From Halisarca cf. caerulea (lineage: Eukaryota; Porifera; Demospongiae; Chondrillida; Halisarcidae): a stretch of DNA of 64,000 nucleotides. Under the pieces are notes generated by a model. That model saw only the letters and a program-made list of their open reading frames with translations. It searched no databases and was not told the origin of the DNA. The DNA is taken from assembly GCA_963170055.1 (NCBI GenBank), contig CAUJGJ010000444.1:8231618-8295617 (forward strand). Reading direction: 5' to 3'. This document shows positions 331 to 63,118 of the stretch, one piece after another. The position numbers and the translations under genes were made by a program. Numbering within the stretch: position 1 is the stretch's first letter; every line of letters begins with the position of its first letter.

Positions 331-450
331 GTCAGATGTATTGCATATTCAGCAATGTATTGCATAAAGAAAATATAGTATATATATATATATATATATA
401 TAGTCAGATGTATTGCATATTCAGCAATGTATTGCATAAAGAAAATATAG

Positions 451-518
<68 letters not shown>

Positions 519-542
519 AATACATAATATAATATCTATATA

Positions 543-603
<61 letters not shown>
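331..603. repeat. 72-bp tandem duplication plus TA and TG microsatellites
   Basis: A unit starting GTCAGATGTATTGCATATTC at 331 recurs at 403, a 72-bp period that includes a TA run. It is followed by (TA)n to about 515 and (TG)n from about 546 to 602. Reading frames here (Tyr-Ile or Thr-His runs) are products of the dinucleotides. Confidence 0.9.
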
Positions 604-604
<1 letters not shown>

Positions 605-883
605 TTTGTTCTGAAATAAATTTGAAATAACTGCATATCAGTCATATTAATGCATTTTATTTAGTTCTATGTACCACCCAAAGTCAATTCAACTTTGTAA
701 GTGTCATATTTACCAAATGATATTTCAATATAACTTAGCATTATGTTTAAAATAATTTATGTACTGTTATTTTTCCTTAGAGTTGTTAATTTAACTCCTT
801 ACTTGTTATTTTACTTAACTTTAAGTTGTAATAACAGTTATGTTAATTAGTAACTTCTACCAAGTATGGCAGATTCAACTACT

Positions 884-1689
884 CATTTTTTACAGTGTAA
901 AATTCGTAGACTCTGTAATGGAGAAAGACGACGAGACATCCTTGGCGGACTTGAAGTCTCAGCTCCAAAAGGAAGGAACGTCGGTGTCGACAAGCACTGT
1001 TCACCGCTGGCGGCAAGACCTCGGGTGGACTTCTAAATACCAAATATTGTCAAATGATTCCAGAGGCGAACGTCGAGAAGCGCTTGGCATGGGCACAGAA
1101 GAATGTGGACGACATTAATTTGGACAGCCTCATCTTTACAGACGAGACAACTGTGCAGCTTGAAAACCACCGTTGCACGACTTGCTACAAGCGAGGCCAA
1201 AAGCCACGGTACAAACCACATCCAAAGCACCCTATCAAAGTGCATGTTTGGGCCGGGATCAGTGGAAGAGGAAGAACGGCAGTTTGCATATTTGAAGGGA
1301 AAATGAATGCCCCACTGTTTACAAAAATCCTGAACGAGACACTGGTTCCTTTTATCCGTGATGTCTACCCGGATGGATGTTGCCTAGTTCAAAACAATGA
1401 CCCAAAGCATTGTTCCAGAATGGCTCAAGAGTTTTATGAGGAAAACAATGTAAACTGGTGGAGAACGCCTGCCGAGTCTTCAGATCTGAACCCAATAGAA
1501 AACATGTGGCATGAGCTAAAAGAACACATCCGTAGAATAGTAAAGCCATGGACAAAGCAACAGTTAATCCAAGGAATTGTTGACTTCTGGGACAGAGTTG
1601 ATGTTGAAAAGTGCCGCAAATATATCAATCATTTGAGAAAAGTGATTCTGGCCGTCATTGAGTGTCAAGGCAATGCTACAGGGTATTGA
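884..1689 (+). pseudogene. Decayed Tc1-type transposase
   Basis: The first part (about 884-1050) encodes a Tc1-type helix-turn-helix ending STSTVHRWRQDLGW. After a frame change near 1045-1054 the DDE domain runs to a TGA at 1687-1689. Family signatures are IFTDET (first Asp), QNNDPKH, and SSDLNPIENMWHELKEH (final Glu). In DD34E Tc1 enzymes the second catalytic Asp is the first D of QDNDPKH; here that codon is AAC (Asn), so the triad is broken. The first helix-turn-helix of the paired DNA-binding domain is missing upstream. No terminal inverted repeats were found. The sequence at 884-900, just before the conserved part, matches the end of a repeat near 7460-7476, so the 5' part may have been replaced. 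Confidence 0.85.
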
Positions 1690-1986
1690 GTTTAGAACAG
1701 TATGCATATGTAGTACCTCTTTACACCATTAAAACAATGCTGTATTTGGAATTTTTTGTTTTTCTGTTACATTGTGTACCTACCTATAATAATATTATTA
1801 GTATGTATCTGTACATATATGTACATGTATATACGTATATTGGAGAGAACAAGTCATAGTCATGCAGTTCAACAAATTCACTGACCATATGGTATATATA
1901 CAATAATGTACAAATATAAACAAAAATACACTAATAATGTACGTAATATTACTCTCACACACTGACTGAGTACATTTCTGCATTAG
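1690..1986. other. Non-coding spacer
   Basis: AT-rich stretch between the Tc1 remnant and the 3' end of the minus-strand zinc-finger/BEN-like gene. No gene, terminal repeat or RNA gene seen. Confidence 0.5.
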
Positions 1987-4157
1987 TTAGGGGTTCTTTC
2001 TACGAAGGCATTTGCACATCTGTCCAATAGATTCCTGTGCGCCAATCCACTTCTGCTCAAAGGCCTCTGGTTTGGTCCAATAATCAGGAAAGTTATAGAA
2101 AAGGGTCATCTTTAGTGCTGTCAAAACTTTGTGAGGAAGGGCCGGACATCCACCACGCCCTCTTGTTGTGCATTGTTTAAGTACATTGTCTCCAAAGAAC
2201 ACTTCCTTGGCCAACCTTACAGCAAATGCACCAAACTGACTGTCAATCAGCAAGTGTGAATACTTTTGTAATGCAGCATCAACAGAGATTAGTTGTGATT
2301 GACATATGTCACTTTCAGGGATTTTAGGACCCTTCGGTGGTGGAATGCTTGCAATACGATATGAATAATTGTTTGCCAAAGTGCCTTGAATGAATGATTG
2401 TGCGCCTTCTTGTGCTAATACTGGAGTGACTGACGGTATCGTCCGAGTTGCTGGACTGGATGATTGTGTCATCTGAGGTGCTGGAGTGGCTGATTGTGTC
2501 ATCCGAGGTGCTGGAGTGGCTGATTGTGTCATCCGAGGTGCTGGAGTGGCTGATTGTGTCATCTGAGGTGCTGGAGTGAATGGTCTTGTCTTAAGATTGC
2601 TTTCACACTTTCTGATTCTAGCAGATAAATCCTCTTGCTCTCTTGACATCTTAGTATATAGTTCAATCAGCTTGTTTTGCCCAGTTTGTAAGTTCTCCAA
2701 CAAAGCCATCACTCCTTGTCTATCTTGTCCAACTGCCTTCCCAGCCTGAACTTCATCATCAAAATTATGGTCATACCAGACATCGTCGACCAGGAAATGA
2801 TCACTCCAAGTATCTGACTGAAAGTCACTTTCTTTAGGTCGAGGCTTCTCTGATGGTAGGTGGTCTTCAGTAGTACATCCTGAAGTGCTGTCTTCCGAAG
2901 GGGGGCGTTCGGTAGTACATCCTGAAGTGCTGTCTTCCGATGGGGGGCGCTCGGTAGTACATCCTGAAGTGCTGTCTTCCGATGGGGGGCGCTCGGTAGT
3001 ACATCCTGAAGTGCTGTCTTCCGATGGGGGGCGCTCGGTAGTACATCCTGAAGTGCTGTCTTCCGATGGGGGGCGCTCGGTAGTACATCCTGAAGTGCTG
3101 TCTTCCAAAGGGCGGCGTTCATTTGCGAGTGGTTGCTGACCACCATGACAGGACACCAACAAAATTTGCCCAGTTGGCTCTATGGACCTAATTTTCTTTT
3201 CTTTACTTTGGCTGGATTTATTGCCCTCCTGCTTCCTCTTGGCTCTGGTGCCCTTTTAAATAAAGAAGTCTTTGGGGTAGAATGACTATTGTTGTGTCCC
3301 GACAGGTTTACTTCAGCCAATGGTTGTCTGTCCTGTGGTGGAGGCTCAGGAAGTTCCTATTCTCCTTGTAAAAAGTCAGTTTCCAGTTTAGTCATTTCTG
3401 CTTTAGTACCTGCAGGCAACATGTAACATGCATTAAACTTTATGATAAAGCACAAAAACACAAGTTACTGTAGTCTAGTCTTTGGAGTATCTGTTATAAC
3501 TAACACAATATTCAACCTCCACCACTATCATACATAGACCACACACAACACCAAAGAACACGGATTAAACCACAGATGCATCAACAACTAATAGCGTGAA
3601 GTATCTACATATTCCAGATCCACAGAAAATCTTAGCACTGACAACCAGCTTCAACTAACCAATTCCAGCAATAACTCCGGTGTAGACCTTGCCAATAGCA
3701 TCTTGATCTCTGCTGTGGGTAACATATTCCACAGAATGATATTCTACTGTAGTTTCTTCTCCATTGATGCTGTGAGCATCGTTGCTTTCACTTCCTTCAT
3801 TGATTTATTAACTGTGAAAATGTACCATTGACAAACATATAGGGAGTCAATCCATGCCCATGTGATTGGAAATTCCTAAAGTACTGGTCCATTTCACCTT
3901 GTATTTAGATTATTGGTATGCCCGTTCGGATATGTTAACTCACCATTAGTTTCTTTACCCTGTAGTTTCAACAGATTATGAAGGGAGTACACATGATTCC
4001 TGAAGGTATGGAAATTTTTGAATGTCCTTTGACACCCTTCAAGATTACACTGAAATGGCCTCTTCTCTGTTAGATGATCCTGTCTCATGTGGACAAGTAA
4101 GCCTGTTATATTGCCATGAAGAATTCTTGAACAAAGAGGACATCCCAAGGAAGACAT
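1987..4157 (-). CDS. C2H2 zinc-finger and BEN-domain-like protein, four exons, one in-frame TAG
   Basis: Proposed exons on the minus strand: 4157-3959, 3794-3660, 3409-3312 and 3252-1987; all junctions are GT-AG and keep phase, totalling 566 codons. Exon 1 starts MSSLGCPLC and has two C2H2 fingers (CPLC...HMRQDH and CNLEGC...HVYSLH). Exon 4 has a Lys/Arg-rich stretch, a 14-residue Thr/Ser/Pro repeat, an acidic segment, a short coiled-coil-like region, a 10-residue TPAPQMTQSA-type repeat, and a C-terminal BEN-like domain (key words VFFGDNVLKQCTTRGRG and CPALPHKVLTALKMTLFYNF). BEN domains bind DNA or chromatin, so a nuclear regulator is inferred. The 59-bp last intron is inferred from frame. 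Exon 3 contains TAG at 3359-3357, probably a mutated CAG; either the gene is dead, the allele is null, or the exon 3 model is wrong. Confidence 0.6.
2431..2580 (-). repeat. 30-bp in-frame coding repeat
   Basis: Five consecutive 30-bp units, the first degenerate, encode a 10-residue Pro/Thr/Gln motif in exon 4 of the zinc-finger/BEN-like gene. Units begin TGATTGTGTCATC at 2461, 2491, 2521 and 2551. Confidence 0.9.
2872..3123 (-). repeat. 42-bp coding minisatellite (six units)
   Basis: Units beginning AGTACATCCTGAAGTGCTGT start at 2872, 2914, 2956, 2998, 3040 and 3082. Each encodes 14 residues of the type STSGCTTERPPSED. Inner units are nearly identical, as expected of a length-variable VNTR. 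Because 42 is a multiple of three, length change keeps frame. Confidence 0.95.
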
Positions 4158-18735: not shown

Positions 18736-18894
18736 TGTTATGGAGCCTTCTCTAAAGGTATTGTGGGTGACATATTCCTCATTATGCATGAGCAATACCA
18801 CTTGAGACCGCCTCCAGGCTATAAATTGTAATCATACTATACACTGTACAGTTTTAACTTGTTGGAAATTTTGCTAGCATCTGTCGTCTGGAAA

Positions 18895-20283
18895 ATGCAG
18901 CATTTGTTGCTTATGCTAACTGTACTGAAAGTGGTTCAGTTTATCCCACCGAGTATTGCAGTTCAATTGAAAGACTCAACACCAGGACGCTCTTTGATTT
19001 GGGATGCTGAGGTTCAAAGGTTACATAAGATAAGCAAACGGTCTTCTGTTGGAGAGCATGGCGTGCAATTCCAGAGTAATGGAGCCTGTACTATACCAAA
19101 TGTAAGACAATTTGACACTCTAAGACGTCGTGATTCTGGTGTTTTGGCAGATGTTGAGGATCAAGGAAACTGTGGTAGCTGCTGGGCTTTTGCTACTACT
19201 CACGCTTTCACTGATCTCAGAAGCATTAGTGCGGGAACTAAACAAACACTACTGTCATCAGAATATACGTCAAGGTGCATACCTGAAGAAGATGATAATG
19301 GCTGTTGTGGAGGACATGCATATTATGCCGCTAAATACTTTAAGCAGTTTGGTGTGGTGTCCAGTCAGTGTTTACCATACACTTTACAAACGTACTTGGA
19401 CAACGTTCTTGTGGAGGACCGACCGGCATATAAAGAAACTAACCCTCTTAGCTGCCCTTCAAGGTGTAGCAATAATTCACCATATACTACACAAATAACC
19501 AGATTGGCTGATTACCAATTTTATCAGGAAATAGCTGATAGTAGTATTATTGCTCTACTTCAATCAGGACCTGTAGTGGTTGGTATGGCTGTGTCTGAAG
19601 ATTTCTGTGATTACAAATGTGGTGTATATTGTCAACCTTCACCATTTACTGTGGAGGAATGTGGATCACAAGAGTGCTTGCATGCCGTTGAAATAGTGGA
19701 TTATGGTACTACGAGTTCTGGGGTTAATTTTTGGGTGATTAAGAACAGTTGGGGAAGAAATTGGGGAGAAAATGGTTACATCAGAATCAGAAGGGGTGAT
19801 CTTTGCATTGGAAAATTGACTGCTGTTTTTTTACAAACATCTTCAACTGGTTCCCAAAGTCTAGTGAGCAATGCAATGCCTATGTGCTCACAACAGAGGG
19901 TCTCTAGACCCAATACAAACCTGTTCACTACAAGTGCTATTGGATTTGGCCTCAATGAACTTGTGAGACGGCGGCTCATTCCTTGTCCAGATCAATCAAT
20001 ACCTACCAATGCTTCCCTTGTCTCTATACTTGAAGCAATGGTCCAGATTATAGGTGGGATAAAGGTTGATGCGACTATCATGGCCAATTTACTCCAATGC
20101 AGTGGTAGCACTTCCCCAGTTTCTGTTAGTCTTGACATTTCAGTTATCATAAATCCTGAAGGAACCTTTACCTTGAATGCTTATGAGGTCAACAACTCGA
20201 GAGGCATATTCTCTAGCCTATCTCCACTACTGATGCTTGTGGTCCTTGGTTTGGTGATAACTGTTCAAATATTGCTCTGGTGA
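18895..20283 (+). CDS. Papain-family (C1A) cysteine protease with C-terminal extension and membrane tail
   Basis: Single-exon gene of 462 aa. The ATG at 18895 begins a signal peptide (MQHLLLMLTVLKVVQFIP); codons upstream in the frame lack an ATG. Residue 96 is the catalytic Cys in DQGNCGSCWAF (with the oxyanion-hole Gln), His263 lies in CLHAVEIVDYG, and Asn284 in VIKNSWGRNWGENGYIRI. The short propeptide lacks an obvious ERFNIN motif, which fits cathepsin B-like rather than L-like proteases. Unusually, about 150 residues follow the protease domain, ending in a hydrophobic segment (LLMLVVLGLVITVQILLW). A membrane-anchored or GPI-linked lumenal or surface protease is inferred. Lack of introns, unlike the 5' genes of this window, hints at a retrocopied origin. 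A truncated relative lies at 30.7 kb. Confidence 0.88.
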   Translation: MQHLLLMLTVLKVVQFIPPSIAVQLKDSTPGRSLIWDAEVQRLHKISKRSSVGEHGVQFQSNGACTIPNVRQFDTLRRRDSGVLADVEDQGNCGSCWAFATTHAFTDLRSISAGTKQTLLSSEYTSRCIPEEDDNGCCGGHAYYAAKYFKQFGVVSSQCLPYTLQTYLDNVLVEDRPAYKETNPLSCPSRCSNNSPYTTQITRLADYQFYQEIADSSIIALLQSGPVVVGMAVSEDFCDYKCGVYCQPSPFTVEECGSQECLHAVEIVDYGTTSSGVNFWVIKNSWGRNWGENGYIRIRRGDLCIGKLTAVFLQTSSTGSQSLVSNAMPMCSQQRVSRPNTNLFTTSAIGFGLNELVRRRLIPCPDQSIPTNASLVSILEAMVQIIGGIKVDATIMANLLQCSGSTSPVSVSLDISVIINPEGTFTLNAYEVNNSRGIFSSLSPLLMLVVLGLVITVQILLW

Positions 20284-20472: not shown

Positions 20473-21610
20473 CGCATGTGGGTCATGTCCAGATTTGTTA
20501 TGATAGCGCCTCTCAGGTTGCATATAATATAGTGACAGAATGTTATTTTTTCAGCACCTACAAGTTATTATTAGTCTGACTCAGTCGTGATTCTGACTGT
20601 TATTTGAACATATACGAATGCCAAGTCTACATTTACTGATGTTTTCTGCCATCACAGTTACTTTGGCACATGATGGCTTGTGACCTAACTGGATGTTCTT
20701 CAAAATTTTAGTACAGTGGAACCTGCCTAATCCGGCACCTCTATAAACCGGAATTCGCCTGAATCAGCCAAGATTCTCTGGCGCCAATTGTTTTGCCATA
20801 CAAACTAACCTCTAGAATCCAGCAACCTGCTAACTCGCAATCCGGCATCGATTCTGCTGGCCTAACAGGCCCAAATAACCTCTATAAACCGGCATTTCTT
20901 CAAAAGCACTTGCTTTTGAAGTCAGAAAACGATGCCAACTACGTCAAGCAAGATTTAGGTAGCTCACACCATTTTAGTGACGTAATAGTGACAGCAAATT
21001 ATGGCATCATAATTGGACTAATTTGTACAGGAAACAAACCTAAAGGGTAAGTGATAATGCAGTAATTGGCCTCATTTGTATTGCAGCAGCTTCCCACTTG
21101 CCAAGAATAAAAATGCGATAGTCATGGCTGGGAGAGCTCACAAAGAGGTTATTGGGAGAAGTGGGCAATAACTACACAGATTGTAGCAAGATAGTAGGCT
21201 ATAATCAGAAACATAGCATTCCTCAAATTGGAATAACTGTTATAATTCTTTTAAACTTTTAATTGGACTATGAACTTAATTAACCGCATGTATTGCTGCA
21301 TGCATATATATGCTTAATATGCTTAATACAACTGCCTGTTTTATTGCATCATCATTCTCATGGCTGAAAACGAAAACCCTCTATAATATGTTTTTCATTC
21401 CCCAATGGGTGCCGGATTATACAGGTTCCACTGTACATGATTGTGGACTAACTTGGATGTTCTTCATATAATTTATTTTTCAGCTGGGTGCTATGTGAGG
21501 AAACAAGCTGGAGCTAGTTTTTTTGGTGCCAACATTGAGCTACATTTATAGCATACAACTTTTCCATGTAGTGGCAAGAGCACTGTTGTTCCTATCCTGA
21601 GTTAACTTTT
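20473..21610 (+). mobile_element. X-family hairpin-core element, copy X1, 3' truncated and interrupted
   Basis: Left end CGCATGTGGGTCATGTCC at 20473, followed by the family sequence GATTTGTTATGATAGCGCC. A Tigger-type MITE (20714-21433) interrupts it within the TTTTAG segment, after which family sequence resumes (GCTGGGTGCTATGTGAGG, CAACTTTTCCATGTAGTGGC). The second hairpin arm and right terminal repeat are missing. Confidence 0.8.
20714..21433. mobile_element. Non-autonomous Tigger-type MITE inside X1
   Basis: 720 bp with inverted ends CAGTGGAACCTGCCTAATCC and CAGTGGAACCTGTATAATCC (as read inward), flanked by TA at 20712-20713 and 21434-21435. No transposase frame. A different family from the pogo-like element at 9.7 kb, though the ends share CAGT(T/G)GAACC. 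Confidence 0.88.
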
Positions 21611-21979
21611 TATGGACCATAGACCAGTTTGCTGGCTTATGAGTGCTGAACCCCTTACAGACCAAGCGATACAAACTTCATGAGATAATTTTGAAATTTA
21701 TATCAAAAGATAGAGTATCACATGCTTAACAACATGCAGTAATTTGAACACAATACATAGTAGTATAATGTGTATAGGAAGGACTACAATATAGACTAAA
21801 AGCCTACGTGAAGACGGGGCCACGCAGTTATACAAACAATTTTATAAAGATATGCAAACTATGTAAACACAAAAATGGCTACCTAACATTTGATATAAAA
21901 CGTTCATCCATTTCTTGCCATATTCAAGCTTTGTGTGATAGGTTCTAAATCAGCCAACAGGGCAGAGTGGCACTGGTTT
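21611..21979. other. Unassigned spacer
   Basis: No recognisable feature between X1 and the piggyBac remnant. Confidence 0.4.
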
Positions 21980-28520: not shown

Positions 28521-29285
28521 CGCAGGTATGTTATGGCACTTTTTGCCATAAAACAAAATGGCTGCCACTTTCGAATGGCTTGTATAAAATGCCTTGTTTT
28601 CTCCTCCTGAAGGTGGAAAGACTCAAGAAAGCATCTAGATAGTATTTCAAACATTCGTAGTTTGTGCATAAGTAATTTAAAGAGCCAAAAACATATCGTA
28701 CATGTTGTACATGGTCGATTTTTAACCATACCAAAATAAGGAAAAAACGCAAAAGGCGCGGGTCTAGACATCTGAATTTAAACGCGCAAGTCAATTCAGA
28801 AGACAGAACATGTCCAAATCTTACTTTTCTGATTTGGGGAAAATGCTGCTCCATTCCACGGCTGTTATGTCCACGGATTTCTGATCAAAAACAACGGCTA
28901 TTGCAACAAGTGGCTGCGCATAAACTGAAGGAATGGACCGACAATCTTCCCCAAATCAGAATTTGATGTTCAGTCCTTCAGCGATATTCTGACAAAGTTT
29001 TAAGTATCTACGTAGAGATCTAGACCCGCGCCTTTTTCGCCATAAAATCCTTGTGGACTGGAGTGCTTCTTTAGGCCTTTGTCACACGATATCACATGTC
29101 CACAGAGGCAAACTCTCCAAATACTCGCGTGTTTCAGCCTATAATGACGTATAATAGTCGTGTTTAAGCTGTGGTCACATGGCCAAACCGTGATAAACTG
29201 TCTGAGGCGCAATAGTCTAATCGCATACCTTGTCAAACCACAAAACGCCCCCTTTTAGCCTCAATTCTGCCATAACATACCTGCG
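28521..29285. mobile_element. Y-family hairpin-core element, copy Y1
   Basis: Inverted ends CGCAGGTATGTTATGGCA, flanked by TC at 28519-28520 and 29286-29287. The core has nested stems: CGCAAAAGGCGCGGGTCTAG (28748 on) pairs with 29018-29040, and TTCTGATTTGGGGAA (28827) pairs with TTCCCCAAATCAGAA (28947). The loop contains GGCTGTTATGTCCA. No ORF of note. 765 bp. Confidence 0.88.
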
Positions 29286-30669: not shown

Positions 30670-31187
30670 ATGCAGCATTTGTTGCTTATGCTAACTGTAC
30701 TGAAAGTGGTTCAGTTTATCCCACTGAGTATTGCAGTTTAATTGAAAGATTCAACACCAGGACGCTCTTTGATTTGGGATCGTGAGGTTCAACGTCTACA
30801 CAAGACAAGCAAACGGTCTTCTGTTGGTGCCCACGCTGTACAATTCCAGAGTAGTGTAGCCTGTACTAGACCAAACATAAGAGAATTTGATACTCTAAGA
30901 CGTCCTGATTCTAGTGTTTTGGCAGATGTTGAGGATCAAGGAAAGTTTGGTAGTTGCTGGGCTTTTACGATCACTCATGCTTTTACTGATCTCCGAAGCA
31001 TTAGTGCAAGTACTAAACAAACACTGCTGTCATCAGAATATACAGCAAGATGTGTATGGGTCATAAATGATAATGGCTGTAGTGGAGGAGATCCAGCTTA
31101 TACTGCTGAATACTTTGAGAAGACAGGAGTTGTGTCCAGTCAGTGCGTGCCATACACTTTACAAACATACTTGGTCAACGTTAGAAA
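30670..31187 (+). pseudogene. Truncated copy of the 18.9-kb papain-family protease
   Basis: Near-identical to the start of the 18895 gene from a few bases before its ATG. Codon 24 is TAA (30739-30741) where the intact gene has CAA. The active-site segment reads DQGKFGSCWAF, keeping the catalytic Cys but losing a disulfide Cys. Homology stops at about 31187, after VNV, and unrelated sequence follows; the His and Asn part is absent. Upstream homology ends a few bases before the ATG, so the promoter was not copied. Confidence 0.9.
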
Positions 31188-31281
31188 AGGGTCAAGGTAA
31201 CCCCAAAAAAGCATGTATTTGCTCTTGGCCCTTCATACAGCCAAAATTCAGGATATACATAGTGAGTGCACACTTCATTAA

Positions 31282-34337: not shown

Positions 34338-34675
34338 AAATGCAATGCAGTTTTACGCAGGTAGGTTATGTGCACATTGAACTGTAAAGGGGCGTTTCTG
34401 TGGTAATAAGGAATGTGATTACATTGTAACGCCTTTGCGAGCCAGATCATGCGCGATTTGCGTGACCAAAGGATGACCAGTTGTGACGCGTTGGTGAATG
34501 CTCCTCTAAAAAAAGGATCCGAACCACTGCTAGTGCTGAACGACGGTTAGGTTTTGTGTATTTATTGTGAATTGTCGGGTTAGTTATCCTCTGCGTGGTT
34601 TTGTAGGAGCGAATGCCGTTGAAATCGCTTGTTGCGTGGTACGGATTACTGATGAACTGAGTGAACTGTACGCTG

Positions 34676-35720
34676 CGCAGGTATGTTATGTCCGATCTGG
34701 ACATAAACAAAAATGGCCGCCGATATCGAAGGAGTGAAATCAATCGGTCTGTTTTGCATGTGCACGAGTAGTGATGTTCAGAAAATACCTTGTGTTATAT
34801 CTTAAACATATCTACTTTGTATCTGAGTCATTTAGATTCTTCTGGAGGGTCACAAAACTTCGTATGACGAGTTTTTCTGAACGTATCAGAAAACATAAAA
34901 ATGCAAAAACGCGGTGGTAGAAACTTAGGCTTTTGGACACAAAACTTGGTTCGAAAGAACACACAGATATCGAACTTACTAAATCCGAATCAGGGTCTTC
35001 AGGCTCCACTGCATGGCTGTTATGTCCAAGAATTTATGCAAAATTCTAGGGTGACTAGTTACAATCTGTTGGACATAAAACAAACGGAGCAACGTACAGA
35101 GACCCTGATTCGGATTCTAGGGGTTTGAACCTTCTGGAACAATACCTCAAAGTATCATGGTGCAAACCGGTGATTTCTACCACTGCGTTTTGCGATGAAG
35201 TTTTCTTGTGGTGAAAGTTAGCTTCCTTCAGTAAAATCACGTGACGTCACATGCAATCGTGCTAGCAGGCTAGGTGTGCTCGTAGTCACTTTTCCACAAT
35301 CTCGCTATAGTACCAGTTTTCGTTCTTCAGAGAACTACCGAGGAACGTACGTTCGCAGGACTGTGCTCCTTACCAAGTTAATCTCTTATCAGATCAATTA
35401 TGTTAGTCTTGTTCCAGGCGGCCTAACTGCGCAGTGCACGAATTCGATGTTTTGAAGCCCACAACTTCCCCTTAGAATTTACCTCTGCCTTCACAACGGT
35501 CGCAAAATAGTTTCGAAAAGCATATTATGCGCTCAAAACATTGGTTCTTCTGGAACTCAAGCGAAAAACGTGTAAAAGCCAGGCAATGACGTCATCGACT
35601 AGCCAGCAAGTCGCGCGAACAACACGTGATATAGCCTCTAAATGTGTTCCAATTTTATTACATTCCTCACAACCGCATACACGCCCACTTTACCTCGGAT
35701 TCGGACATAACATACCTGCG
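34676..35720. mobile_element. Y-family hairpin-core element, copy Y2
   Basis: Inverted ends CGCAGGTATGTTATGTCC, flanked by TG at 34674-34675 and 35721-35722; 1045 bp. Nested core stems: GCAAAAACGCGGTGGTAGAA (34902) with 35173-35192, and AATCCGAATCAGGGTCT (34982) with AGACCCTGATTCGGATT (35100). The loop again contains GGCTGTTATGTCCA. No recognised protein. Confidence 0.9.
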
Positions 35721-35722
35721 TG

Positions 35723-36049
35723 ATATTGTGCGTACTAATAACTCAAATGTTTACAAATAGACTGTTCACTAGGCTTATCAGTATCAGTACCTTACAACAA
35801 GTGATCTCAAGAGCATCTTGGGGCATTATTTCATACAAAACCACGCAGGGGGTAACTAACCGACAATTCTTATCCTAACCTTCGTTCAGCACTATCCAAA
35901 TGCTTTGAACGGCAATAATAGTTGCCTGTTGAATCGTTGGAGTCAGGGACAAGATATAGCTGCTAGAAAAATTGAGAGATGAATACACACGTGTATTCTA
36001 AGCCAGCTTGCAGCTACCGTGAACAGTACCTATTCGTGACGTATGCGCC
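35723..36049. other. Non-coding spacer
   Basis: No feature identified. Confidence 0.4.
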
Positions 36050-36625
36050 AAAGTCACCTGACATTGACGTGACTAAGAGAAGAAGAAGGATATTTGCAGG
36101 AGCTAAATTTCTTCTCAAAACGCGCCGATGAAAACAACCCGCTGGAGCTTCGAGAATTTACAAGCTTGTTAACAAAGGGTAAGACTAACTTTTCACCGTA
36201 GCGCCTCTTAGAAGCTTTTTCCTTTCGTTTTATGTGCACGTGTTTGTGAAGTATTTTCCCAAAAAGACCAGAAAACCTTGCACATCTTCGGAACGAAGTG
36301 GAATTTCTTAAGGCGCTACGGTGAAAAGTTAGCTACCGTTCCAAAGAACTCTTCGCCGTAGATAGCTTGTCTCCACAGAATCTTTAAATATGGCACGTTT
36401 TGGGATGAAGTTAAAATCGTATACTTCAAATCAGTTCAAGATTTCTCCTTCGATACGCTCTTTAAAAGTTAACAAAGTGGAGAAATGGAGAGTTAAAGAA
36501 TTCAAATAGAGTCTTTCACTTTTGCCTTTCCATATTATTCATTGCGAAAGAAGAAAAAGGGGGTGTATTTGTGACCAACTTTTACGGCGGCCATTTTGAA
36601 TTTTCCCTCAATATGCACATAACTC
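36050..36625. mobile_element. Y-like hairpin-core element, copy Y5, partial
   Basis: A strong stem joins CTAACTTTTCACCGTAGCGC (36184) with GCGCTACGGTGAAAAGTTAG (36314). An outer pair, CTTCTCAAAACGCGCC (36112) with GGCACGTTTTGGGATGAAG (36394), resembles the Y2 outer box. The right end near 36626 reads CATAACTCACCTGTG, a diverged Y terminus. A matching left terminus was not found. Confidence 0.6.
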
Positions 36626-36857
36626 ACCTGTGTATCAAAGCATCATTTTCCACATGCCTCTGGATTGTGATAGACAACAGGGGATTTACCCTGATATAGT
36701 TTTTTATGTGATTCTGGTTTCATTTTTCATATATCGAAATCAACATTTTCATGTACATCTTGCAAACTAAAAGGATTATCAATGGTATCCAACAGTGCCA
36801 GTTTATAAAATTAGATATTTAAGTCAGAAGTCCACTGACTCAGTATGAGTCCTTTAA

Positions 36858-37895: not shown

Positions 37896-38629
37896 TGCAT
37901 GTGGAACATGTCCACTTTACACTTGTTTGGCTTCGAAGTGAAGAAAGAAATCGCACAGTATTTTTTTCATTTCTTCGTGCTGGTTAACTATATCTGCACG
38001 AAACAATTTCTATTGTGTAGCTTGTTATAGGGGCGTTCGTTTGATACTAAACATAGAATAACAACTACCAATTAAGCAGAATAATAGGCGTTCTCCTTCA
38101 AGCTATAAAATTGTAATGAAAGGTTGGTAGGATTCGTAGGGCTGCTGTGGACCCATTACACGTAAAGAAGGTTTATCATAGTATTATCTAAAACTTCCAT
38201 GTTGGGGATTTTCATAGGCCAAGTAGATTTTTAGATAATGAACAAAAACAACAATTTGACACTATAAGCACTCACAATATTACTTGAAACTTTTGAAATA
38301 GGCAAGCAATCGAAACGCGGAAAGCCTTCATTACTTTAAGTACTAACAAGAAACCTAAAAAACAAAGGCCGATTGGTCGTATGTCACATCCTACCAGGCT
38401 TTAAAGATCTAACTTGAGTAGAAGTGCTTGGTCGCCATTTTGTCACTTGACAAGCGTGTGATATAAAAGAAGATTACGCAAAAAATTAATGTGACATCAC
38501 ACATTGGCTGCGCACCTTAAGGCTATTAATCACGTGAAGTTCACATGTGGAAGCCTGAAAAGTGTGCAAATTCCTTCAATTAGGCGCCTGCGCTGGATTC
38601 TCGATGATTTCGGACATGTTCCACATGCG
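37896..38629. mobile_element. X-family element, copy X3
   Basis: Ends TGCATGTGGAACATGTCC and the complement of CGCATGTGGAACATGTCC, flanked by TG at 37894-37895 and 38630-38631. Length 734 bp, like the other X copies, but the interior is strongly diverged. Weak paired boxes remain (GGTTGGTAGGAT near 38122 with ATCCTACCAGGC near 38390). The D2 duplicate is uninterrupted at this point. Confidence 0.8.
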
Positions 38630-38970: not shown

Positions 38971-39697
38971 CGCATTTGAGACCTGCCCAGATTTGTTATG
39001 ATAGCACCTGTTAGTTTGCATAGTGATGAAATGTGGTTTTTCGGCACCTACAAGCTATTAGTCACGCATTTATCCCGGGATTCGAGCTGTTATTCAGACA
39101 TATACGAATGTTAAATCCGCGTTTAGTGATGTTTACTGTCATCACAGTTGTTCTGTCACATGTTGGCTCATGACCTAACTGGATGTTCTTTGGAATTTTA
39201 GTTTTCGGCTGGATGCTACGCGAGGGAACAAGCTGGACACAGTTTCTTGGTGCCAACGTCGAGCTATTTATAGAATACAACTTTTCCATGTGGGGGCAAG
39301 AGAACTCTTGTTCCTGCCTGAAGTTATTGAAGCTTAAATTTTGTGTTTTGAGGGCCAATTGTGCATATCTCAGCTTCGGAGAGGAATTGTCAATGCCCCC
39401 ACATGGAAAAGTTAGTTAATGTGTTGCTATGGCTATTTATGTGAAAAATAGTCTTAGAATCGTTCCTCCATGTAGCACCCAAAGCGTTTCACTTTTTAGT
39501 AGGGCTTAGGCAAATCTCACTAGCTTCTTCGTGATAACAACACTCCTCTCAAAGGGAAATTATTGAAAAGTTTACGGTCTACCTACTCGTTAAGCCTTCG
39601 CTTGACACTCTCAAGCTTCTAGACGTTGAGAACCGAAGTTGTAAAAAAGACCAAAATTTTCCTACCTCCAAATTAGCGTGGACATGTCCTACATGCA
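38971..39697. mobile_element. X-family hairpin-core element, copy X2
   Basis: 727 bp, flanked by TA at 38969-38970 and 39698-39699, with D2 as empty site. The left terminal repeat is decayed (CGCATTTGAGACCTGCCC); the right is well kept. Core stem CTTTTCCATGTGGGGGCA (39280) pairs perfectly with TGCCCCCACATGGAAAAG (39394). An outer box TGGATGCTACGCGAGGGAAC pairs imperfectly with GTTCCTCCATGTAGCACCCA. Confidence 0.88.
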
Positions 39698-43659: not shown

Positions 43660-44205
43660 GGCGAAGAGGCAGTGGTAAAAATCTCAGCTTCTGAACACAC
43701 CAGTAAGTTCAAACGACTCCTTAGGTTCAATAACTACCTGAAAGATTTCTGGAGCCCTGTAGCTCAAAGCACGGCTGTTATGTCCAGGTGTTTACTGCAT
43801 TTTCAGAGGTCTCCAGCCACAAAACATGGGACATAACATAAATGGTATGTACAGAGCTCCAGGAATCTTTCACCGCAGTTTCGACTATTGGGACATATTG
43901 GATGGACATATTCGCGATCTTCCAAGTTGAGATTTTTACCACCACCTTTTTCAAAGAAATTTTCTGCTCGAAAACAACTCTTCTTGACACTGTTGTCACA
44001 TGATATCGCATGTTCTACAAAAACGTTCAAACAGTTCTTTCGTATACTCGCGTATACGTTCCATTTGAACGTGACGTCCTCACCAACATCAAGCTATCTG
44101 TGTGTAACAAACCCTTGTGGTTTCTGCTATAATGGAATTCATTGCTCGAAGCTGTATCATGTTACATTTACTGCTGGATTCCAACATAATACACCTGGGG
44201 ACGTT
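43660..44205. mobile_element. Y-family hairpin-core element, copy Y4
   Basis: Inverted relative to Y3 (56396-56842). Paired boxes: GTGGTAAAAATCTC (43672) with GAGATTTTTACCAC (43929), and GAAAGATTTCTGGAGC (43740) with GCTCCAGGAATCTTTC (43856). Loop GGCTGTTATGTCCA. The right end CCAACATAATACACCTG is a diverged Y terminus; the left terminus is not clear. Confidence 0.75.
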
Positions 44206-50454: not shown

Positions 50455-50740
50455 AAAAACGTGGGCTGCTGCCCCTCGTCCTAAATTACTTGCAAAAATA
50501 ACGGTTTACCTTTACAACAATGGTATCAGGTTTACGAAGAGTTTTAGCCACGCTGAAGGATAAAACCTTGCTGAAACTTCGTCAAAATGTGGCAAATTTT
50601 CTTCAAAATTGCAGTGAAGGCAAAAAATACAAACTGAAGGATAGAACTTCTTCGTAAATTTGATACCATTGTTGCAGAGATGAACCGTTCTTGGTAAAGT
50701 CTTCTTGTCTTTCAGCAGCCATTTTTATTTGCCTACTTCC
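50455..50740. mobile_element. Foldback (inverted-repeat) element
   Basis: Arm ACAACAATGGTATCAGGTTT (50514) with TACGAAG pairs with CTTCGTAAATTTGATACCAT (50652) then TGTTGC. Shorter outer words ACGGTT and AACCGT also pair. Ends not defined. Followed by a (TA)n tract at 50758-50789. Confidence 0.6.
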
Positions 50741-53879: not shown

Positions 53880-55045
53880 TGTATGCGTTACCCCCGGCGA
53901 CCCACTTGATGCGACGATTGGTGTACTTGTTCGAAACAAAGCTACTCGAGCCCAATCATCTATTGTTTCGACTACTATTACTGGCACGCCCGGGCACGCC
54001 ATTCTTATAACCAATGACATAAGCTCCGTAAAGGGCAAAGAACACCAGGCTGAAGCATTGAAGGATAGTTGTACATTGGAAAAAGATGTCCATGATGTCG
54101 TAGGATGTGGTGATAGTGACATAACTGACCACAGTGATGGGGACAGCACTAATGAAGATGACAGCTTTATCGCATGTGGGACATGTCCACATTTGTTATG
54201 ATAGTGCTTCTCAGTTTGCATAGTGATGAAATATTACATTTCGGCACCTATAAAATATTTGTCACGCATTTATCTCATGATTCGTGTTGTTATTCGGGCG
54301 TATACGAATGCCGAATCCGTGTTTGGTGACGTTTCTTGTCGTCACCGATGCTCTGTCACATGCTGACATGTGACTAAACTTTAAAGTTCTTTAGAATTTT
54401 AGTTTTGCGCTGGGTGCTGCATGAGGGAACAAGGCTAAGACGGTTTTATAGTACCAAATGTGAGTTATTGATACGATCTAACTTTTCCATGTTGCGTATT
54501 TTGAATTTCTGCTCCAGTCCCGAGTTATGTGCGCTTAAAGTTCTGATTTTCTGGGCTGATTTCACCGATCTTGGCTTTGGAGAGGAATTACAAAATACGC
54601 AACATGGAAAACTTAGTAAATTCTTCGCTATCGCGATTTATGTAAAAATATATCCCAGAAGCCGTTCCACCATGCAGCACCCAGAGAAATTCCTTCGCGC
54701 ATAGGGGTAGGGAAAACCTTCGTAGCAGCTTCAACATAGACAACAGTTGTTAAAAACTATGTTCAACGAGAAGTTTACATGTCTGCTAACTACTAACGTC
54801 CTTCATCGATATTCTAAAACGTGTAGAAGTTGAGAACAAAAGTTGTAAAAATGACCGAAATTTCACACCTTCGAATTAGCGCAGACATGTCCCACATGCG
54901 ATAGAAGAGAGTGATAATAACAGTACAGAAGAGACCACAAGAAGACAATCCAGAGGCAGAAGCAGGGGAAGAGGAAGAACTTGTGAAACACAGAGGGGCA
55001 GGCCTAGTCAACAGCAGCGAGGTACAAGAGAACAGAGAGAGAGAG
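53880..55045 (+). pseudogene. Acidic/RGRG-rich reading frame interrupted by element X4
   Basis: The frame reading VTPGDPLDATIGVLVRNKA opens near 53880 and runs about 95 codons to DSTNEDDSFI at 54170. It resumes in phase at 54903 (EESDNNSTEETTRRQSRGRS) and runs about 45 more codons through RGRGR to about 55040. Removing X4 plus one 2-bp duplicate keeps frame. An acidic stretch followed by an Arg/Gly AT-hook-like tract resembles N-terminal regions of some piggyBac-type transposases or chromatin proteins; identity unknown. A start codon was not assigned. Confidence 0.5.
54171..54900. mobile_element. X-family hairpin-core element, copy X4 (best preserved)
   Basis: Perfect 18-bp inverted ends CGCATGTGGGACATGTC(C/T), flanked by AT at 54169-54170 and 54901-54902. 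Core stem TCCATGTTGCGTATTTTG (54486) pairs with CAAAATACGCAACATGGA (54591); outer box CTGGGTGCTGCATG (54410) pairs with CATGCAGCACCCAG (54672). 730 bp. Confidence 0.93.
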
Positions 55046-56395: not shown

Positions 56396-56842
56396 CGCAG
56401 GTGTGTTATGTCCGAATCCAGCCATAAGTGTAACATTATACGGTTTCACTCAATGAATTTCATTATAGCGCTAACCACATGGGTTTGTCACGTGCAGATA
56501 GCGAGATTTTCGTGATGACATCATGCGCAAACTGGACGTATACGTGAGAATACGAGAAAGATGTTCGGACTCTTTCGTAGAACATGTGACAGCGTGTGAC
56601 TGTAGTCTAAAGAAGAGAGATGTTTGAGTGGAAATTTTATTTCAAAATCGCGGTGGTAAAATTCTCAACTCAGAGCAACGGCAATAGTACCATTGGGTTC
56701 CCAATAGTCCAAACCGTGGTGAAAGATTCCTGGAGCTTTGTACCTTCTACCGTTCGAGTTATGTCCTGTGTTTTGTGGTTGGAGACCTCCGAAAACGATG
56801 GAAACCCCTGGACATAACAGCCATGCTTTGAGCTATGCATGT
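56396..56842. mobile_element. Y-family hairpin-core element, copy Y3, truncated
   Basis: Left end CGCAGGTGTGTTATGTCC at 56396, flanked by TA. It runs as the complement of 43771-44205 through GTGAAAGATTCCTGGAGC and TGGACATAACAGCC, then stops inside the loop region, so the distal half is absent. Confidence 0.75.

Positions 56843-57949: not shown

Positions 57950-58016
<67 letters not shown>
57821..58016. repeat. Compound (TG)n microsatellites
   Basis: Two long TG tracts (about 57821-57892 and 57951-58016) separated by an imperfect GT-rich spacer. Confidence 0.95.
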
Positions 58017-58017
<1 letters not shown>

Positions 58018-58525
58018 ATGTGGGAAATGTCCAGGATCTGTTATGATAGCGCTTTCCAGTTTACATAGTGATAAAATGTAATTTTTTGCTGCCTACAAGT
58101 TATTAGTCACTCAGTTATCTCGTGATTTGGACTAAAATTCGGGCATATACGAATGCCGAATCTGCGTTTAGTGCCATTTTCTGTCGTCACAGTTGCTCTG
58201 TCAAATGCTGGCTTGTTACCTAACTCGATGTTCTTTGGAGTTTTAGCATTCAACTGGGTGCTACGTGAGGAAACTAATTAGCTGGAGACAGTTTCTTGGT
58301 GGCAACTTCGAGCCAAATGAAATATACAACTTTTCCATGTGGGTAAAAGACAGCTTTAGTTCCTGACCCAAGTTGCAGGAGCTTGAATGTTGGCTTTTGA
58401 GGCCCTATTGATCAGATCTCGGCTTTTGGAAACAAATGGTGAACTCACTCACATGGAAAAGTTAGTAAATGTTTTGGTATAGTGATTTATGTGAAAAAAT
58501 AGTCTTGCAAGCATTCCGCCATGTA
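58015..58525. mobile_element. X-family hairpin-core element, copy X5, 3' truncated
   Basis: Left end GCATGTGGGAAATGTCCAGG directly abuts the (TG)n tract. Core arms ACTTTTCCATGTGGGT (58329) and ACTCACATGGAAAAGT (58446) pair with one mismatch. The right part is lost at GCCATGTAGCAGGG, where another (TG)n begins. Confidence 0.8.
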
Positions 58526-58535
58526 GCAGGGTGTA

Positions 58536-60255: not shown

Positions 60256-63118
<2,863 letters not shown>

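Follow-up and report, generated by a model that had tools for sequence, protein, structure and literature searches.

A stretch of 64,000 nucleotides from the sponge Halisarca cf. caerulea (hereafter the window) carries several copies of a short, non-coding repeat, family X, with an internal hairpin whose stem letters differ between copies while the two arms within a copy still match. The locus raises the question of how a stem can diverge and yet remain self-complementary. The preliminary description of this sequence had offered two answers: either a folded structure, of RNA or of DNA, is under selection, or one arm is repeatedly converted by the other.

Anatomy and mobility of the family X elements

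X4 is a complete non-autonomous element of 730 bp (54171–54900, plus strand) flanked by a target duplication AT and assigned to stem class A. Its left terminal inverted repeat, CGCATGTGGGACATGTCC (54171–54188, plus strand), recurs with one mismatch on the minus strand at 54883–54900. Two nested helices lie between these ends: an outer one, termed M, whose left arm CTGGGTGCTGCATG (54410–54423) is a perfect 14-bp match to the right arm (54671–54684), and a core hairpin, whose left arm (54483–54503) consists of a conserved base, CTTTTCCATG, followed by a class-specific tip, TTGCGTATTTTG, and pairs perfectly over 21 bp with its right arm (54591–54611; all four arms on the plus strand). X2 (38971–39697, plus strand; target duplication TA) belongs to stem class B, and its core arms (39279–39298 and 39394–39413) are perfect over 20 bp, so that the initial observation of differing stems with self-matching arms holds for X2 and X4 at these very positions. 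The same is not true of X5 (58015–58533, plus strand; right boundary approximate), which is ended by a TG microsatellite: what had been read as a third stem version with one mismatch is a decayed class C copy, in which 14 perfect pairs are followed by mismatches at +3, +6 and +8.

Family membership as first described stood in part. The ends of X4 and X2 and the start of X5 were confirmed, but X5 is truncated, X1 is split and X3 belongs to another family with the same 18-bp ends. X3 (37896–38629, given without strand; target duplication TG) carries M-like arms TGGTAGGAT; a search for its right core arm found none, and X3 is absent from the matches of a covariance model built on X-type cores. 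X1 consists of a left part (20473–20712, plus strand) and a decayed core remnant (21553–21695), interrupted by another repeat. This interrupting repeat (20713–21445) has ends like CAGTGGAACCTGCCTAATCCGG and is presumably a pogo/Tigger-type element.

Searching the window for hairpins with perfect arms of at least 14 bp and a gap of 60–160 gave seven, whereas 20 block-shuffled versions averaged 0.4. These are the hairpins of X2, X4 and X5, those of the elements W, U and V described below, and one at 50515–50674, with perfect 14-bp arms and a gap of 132 nt.

Across the genome (194.5 Mb in 454 contigs), queries with X4 and X2 gave 707 and 695 first-look candidates, respectively, of which 40 from each query were scored. 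The end 18-mer has 812 exact matches in the 194-Mb genome, and its reversed control none. Among 82 end pairs with a spacing of 600–1300 bp and no less than 10 bp of flanking sequence, 70 show equal 2-bp flanks, and equal flanks at any one length from 3 to 8 were found in no more than two of the 82. The joined flanks of X4 match three other places at 95–96% over 228/228 bases, representing (paralogous) empty sites. The equal 2-bp flanks together with the empty sites of X4 and of V (see below) identify X4, X2 and X5 as non-autonomous inverted-repeat transposons that duplicate 2 bp of their target. The analysis found terminal inverted repeats, high copy number, a duplication of fixed length and empty sites; being short and non-coding, with hundreds of copies, the elements resemble MITEs and non-autonomous TIR transposons.

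The very short duplications are a feature shared with the CMC (CACTA/Mirage/Chapaev) and ISL2EU (PHIS superfamily) elements, for which PMC4482050, in its part on target duplications, gives 2–4 bp and AT, respectively. Unlike ISL2EU, X-type elements are not AT-specific, since 15 of the 16 dinucleotides are represented among their duplications and AT accounts for 10 of 70. Their ends we take not to be CACTA-like.

No autonomous partner with the same ends was seen among the 100 listed of the 812 exact end matches, nor in four longer end-to-end stretches. Two of these, of 4.9 kb (L141) and 2.5 kb (L151), contain several small elements instead; the other two, of 4.5 kb (L149) and 3.3 kb (L150), are X copies broken by multi-kb inserts (430–4157 and 561–3147 of the respective stretch), whose frames have motifs suggestive of reverse transcriptases and not of transposases. 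A YqaJ/ISL2EU partner is likewise not supported: of the 65 YqaJ matches in the genome, six lie in the part that the listed end matches span, and no exact end occurs within 10 kb of those six. The end 18-mer gave no match in viral contigs, and its 12 single matches in bacterial and archaeal genomes are spread over scattered records, with about 7–8 expected from base count alone.

Pairing between stem classes and decay of single copies

A larger set of 142 sequences (140 loci together with X2 and X5), which is a sample of the listed genomic places and not all copies, served as input for the core analysis; 130 of them gave a core, 124 unique, and 12 gave none. From 125 copies, 24 were dropped, namely 14 with stem indels or a lost part, four duplicates (L041 and L043, with both flanks as in L038; L100 and L125, with the left flank as in L101 and L127, respectively) and six outliers with unmatched arms (L033, L034, L082, L093, L114 and L120). 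The scored set thus comprises 101 copies in nine classes or clades with eight distinct stem tips.

Following CATG, the tip reads TTGCGTATTTTG in class A, TTGGGTATTT in F1 and F2, TTGCGAATTTTG in H, YGGGGGCA in B, YGGAGGCA in I, YGGGTGC in E, YGGCAGCAA in D and YGGGTGAG in C. In a tree of the element with the core arms masked, most copies of one stem class group together, class F falling in two clades; the classes were set by eye following the clades of this tree, with L048, which falls outside that clade in the tree, assigned to class C from its stem, and with class I made up of three decayed copies only.

At the level of these classes set by eye, each of the 106 stem differences at positions +2 to +7 has its counterpart in the opposite arm, none being one-armed (36 class pairs × 6 positions give 216 cells, of which 106 differ), and parsimony on the class tree requires at least 12 paired state changes at these positions. 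Stem differences unmatched in the opposite arm, the outcome that would have contradicted the preliminary description in a larger set, did not appear at this level. Single copies deviate from their class in another manner: of 144 such deviations, 140 are one-armed and four are two-armed, and only two of the latter, in L025 and L026, are matched. When L087 and L140 were also left out (99 copies), the class level remained at 106/106, and 136 of 139 single-copy deviations were one-armed. Recurrent one-armed letter changes number 23, each found in 2–3 copies of one class. Many of these look like recurrent CpG decay. At +4, however, L086/L087 have C opposite C and L110/L119 have G•U, and these changes may be inherited, as each pair sits together in the tree. 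Such shared one-armed changes and the six unmatched outliers weigh against selection for pairing. The simplest account of both levels would be that spreading lineages keep the pairing and inserted copies lose the constraint.

An outer helix and related families

The outer helix M, which encloses the core hairpin, was found by RNAalifold in 25 copies. Double changes occur in 9 of its 15 pairs compared to a shuffle mean of 4.3 (1/500 shuffles as high), and 92.7% of its cells are paired versus at most 46% when slid, although M was taken from the same alignment as was tested, which favours it somewhat. In 21 sequences of X, Y and Z, the core helix has 91% of its cells paired versus at most 51% when slid, and double changes in 17 of 22 pairs, both helices having been derived from the sequences used for their counts. 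No column shuffle out of 500 reached the covariation score in the X+Y+Z core, the X-only core or the M-helix alignment. Further pair types were unremarkable in the X+Y+Z core (53/500 shuffles as high) and in the M helix (61/500), and in the X-only core alignment two of five measures were not above shuffles (double-change pairs, 10 vs 10.0; further pair types, 21 vs 22.1). Whole-element folding of 17 copies gave z values of −2.9 to −9.7 over both strands (12 shuffles each).

The hairpin recurs in elements that are otherwise dissimilar to X. By BLAST, Y and Z share only the 18–19 bp end with X4, and the hairpin is present in both; W, with a related end, carries it too. Built on no other input than X-type cores, a covariance model recovers all 14 Y-type cores (E 1.2e-12 to 2.2e-8), the W of the window (E 1.4e-7) and, weakly, five of five long Z elements (E 2.2e-4 to 0.014), all E values being rough; U, V and four of five short Z pieces are not listed among its matches. 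Y, Z and W have their own paired class changes in the stem.

In the window, W (34356–36632; ~1.23 kb without V; ends CGCAGGTAGGTTATGTGC; target duplication TA; core arms 36185–36206 and 36311–36332) contains V (34676–35720; 1045 bp; ends CGCAGGTATGTTATGTCC; target duplication TG), and a W copy elsewhere (L187) is an exact empty site of V with one TG. V has M arms at 34906–34923 and 35174–35191 (18 nt at 94%) and core arms at 34982–34998 and 35100–35116. The corresponding arms of U (28521–29285; 765 bp; related ends CGCAGGTATGTTATGGCA; target duplication TC) lie at 28751–28768 and 29019–29036 for M (perfect over 18 bp) and at 28827–28841 and 28947–28961 for the core. U, V and W are given without strand, and the X-core model scores the minus strand of W higher. 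U and V have the same core/M geometry as X with unrelated stem sequences; as they are not listed by the X-core model, geometry and ends alone tie them to X. A further candidate explanation, in which the core would be a transposon of its own inserted into X, was rejected, since the relation between core and M is the same in U and V and alike in Y and Z. Two additional truncated or imperfect relatives, with stems GAAAGATT(C/T)CTGGAGC, were noted at 43700–43900 and 56396–56830, the latter with the end CGCAGGTGTGTTATGTCC.

Several stem classes, as well as Y, Z and W, include copies with short terminal branches or 95–99% mutual identity, whose ends are identical or related. Recent copies across so many stem classes make it unlikely that the stem sequence is what one transposase reads. 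Overall, the sequences clearly point to a structural constraint on the element interior, in hundreds of copies and several families of one genome.

A candidate cis-acting fold and its alternatives

Base and tip of the core stem differ in tempo. Among nine class representatives, the stem base diverges by 2–4% (p 0.02–0.04) versus 4–6% for the ends and is as conserved as these. The tip diverges by 48–49% (p 0.48–0.49), twice the median 6-column window (24%), with the tip windows ranking 48 (left) and 38 (right) of 606. It is apparently the sequence of the base, and the shape of the tip, that is read.

We propose a model in which a putative transposase would move the elements through the end CGCATGTGGGACATGTCC or related ends, making the 2-bp duplications, and in which copies that go on spreading would have to retain an interior cis-acting fold, the M helix enclosing a ~20-bp core hairpin whose loop spans ~90–105 nt. 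The stem base (CTTTTCCATG in X) would be recognised by sequence and the tip by shape only, which would allow the tip to drift quickly through paired changes; after insertion, the constraint would be released and the arms would decay independently. We infer a role in cis for the folded form during propagation, and we favour with moderate confidence a cis-acting folded nucleic acid that the elements would need in order to propagate, its base being recognised by sequence and its tip by shape.

Arm-to-arm conversion, or template switching as in quasi-palindrome correction, would make the arms alike without selection, and the fast and symmetric change of the tip as well as the matched changes in L025 and L026 are what it would predict. 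Under conversion without selection, however, changes in resident copies ought often to be matched, and only 2 of the 144 single-copy deviations are, so that resident copies give no sign of ongoing conversion. Moreover, position +1 in classes B, C, D and E has fixed arm-specific letters (T left, C right), and eight of nine classes have C left and T right immediately beyond the stem, class A having C/G, inside the stem. These letters have not been homogenised, which counts against conversion: as they survive beside repeated changes at +2 to +8, tracts would have to be ~7 nt long and always at one place. The original pair of explanations is thus upheld, with selection on a folded structure fitting better than conversion (106/106 class-level differences matched, 140/144 single-copy deviations one-armed). 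Ongoing conversion is disfavoured, and we consider arm-to-arm conversion in general improbable as the source of the pairing; it may occur only while an element transposes, in tracts of ~7 nt.

Selection could also act on the arms as double-stranded DNA sites for one protein, a transposase or helper, the arms being alike, just like terminal inverted repeats, since the same protein reads both and the classes reflecting changed specificity. A stem base as conserved as the ends and the presence of CRE- and E-box-like palindromes agree with this, as do the end-like motifs GTTATGTCC in the loops of U and V, which suggest protein sites on double-stranded DNA. Yet one protein would need to read all of the eight X tips and the Y, Z and W stems, which occur on the same or related ends and several of which have recent copies; one-armed class differences are 0 of 106, and in U and V geometry and M helix persist but stem sequences do not. 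We regard such protein sites as an unlikely explanation of the pairing. Less likely again, the hairpin would be a precursor of the microRNA or siRNA kind that travels with the elements, with the base as seed and a tip changing with compensation. A stem of ~22 bp would suit such a precursor, as would the structural variability of sponge miRNAs and the multi-mapping endo-siRNA clusters with secondary structure in Amphimedon, both reported in the part of PMC6211395 that concerns small RNAs. A trans-acting product, however, need not stay intact in each spreading copy, and Rfam gave no match at gathering score in the window and only two weak sub-threshold matches in seven loci.

For the cis-acting fold that we favour, RNA is somewhat more likely than single-stranded DNA. 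CRE-like (TGACGTCA) or E-box-like (TCACATGA) sites, with one mismatch allowed and a window background of 0.39 and 1.5 per kb, respectively, are situated ~110–155 nt away from the core hairpin in X, Y, Z, V and W, U having only E-box-like sites (loci L002, L079, L142, L144, L145 and L148; U, V and W of the window). In X, Y and Z, oriented by the X-core covariance model, these sites are 5′ of the core. This fixed place holds for X, Y and Z only, since in W the CRE-like site is 3′ of the core on the model-preferred minus strand and U and V are without independent orientation. Fixed wobbles in the core helix are U•G on the plus strand, at +1 in X classes B, C, D and E and at columns 12/151 in Z; these two fixed pairs and the 5′ sites in X, Y and Z are hints of a plus-strand RNA. 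Wobbles of single copies have no strand bias (34 G•U vs 35 A•C) and those of the M helix no clear one (15 vs 12); plus-strand folding energies are lower in 16 of 17 copies, and shuffles shift in the same way. Action as RNA of the plus strand is the least certain part of the proposed explanation. It is conceivable, though rather doubtful, that these elements represent a transposon superfamily in animals whose spread depends on the element's own structured RNA from an E-box/CRE-like promoter. Compensatory change would then maintain two nested helices in several families, one helix having a fast, lineage-specific tip. If this is true, DNA transposition would involve RNA as a component that is recognised in cis.

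The usual picture of an inverted-repeat DNA transposon is that of two ends with passenger DNA. Unlike MITEs and non-autonomous TIR transposons, X-type elements have conserved nested internal helices, whose arms covary between lineages and which are common to otherwise dissimilar families. Helitron 3′ hairpins resemble the X core in that stem letters vary among families and pairing is kept, but Helitrons are without the terminal inverted repeats and target duplications that X possesses. Integron attC sites are read as folded hairpins. For bacterial REP palindromes, PMC8266576, in its part on target recognition, describes how TnpA-REP recognises a folded hairpin together with a short sequence motif. 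REP/TnpA-REP and attC are bacterial single-strand systems, whereas the X hairpin is eukaryotic, internal and situated inside an inverted-repeat element. The literature searched, itself a partial selection, yielded no eukaryotic inverted-repeat transposon with covarying internal helices, which is not proof of absence. As the many-copy record separates paired changes in spreading lineages from unpaired decay after insertion, it becomes possible to test directly whether DNA transposition requires a structure, and the elements may serve as a model case for distinguishing compensatory selection from palindrome conversion.

Elsewhere in the window, a TA-rich tandem sequence of ~2.5 kb (60575–63080) gives rise to inverted repeats of more than 1 kb and to spurious open frames. 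Two similar papain-type cysteine protease frames are found at 18859–20280 and 30742–31200, the former with PF00112 relatives that include one from Halichondria panicea (35% identity; closer relatives exist).
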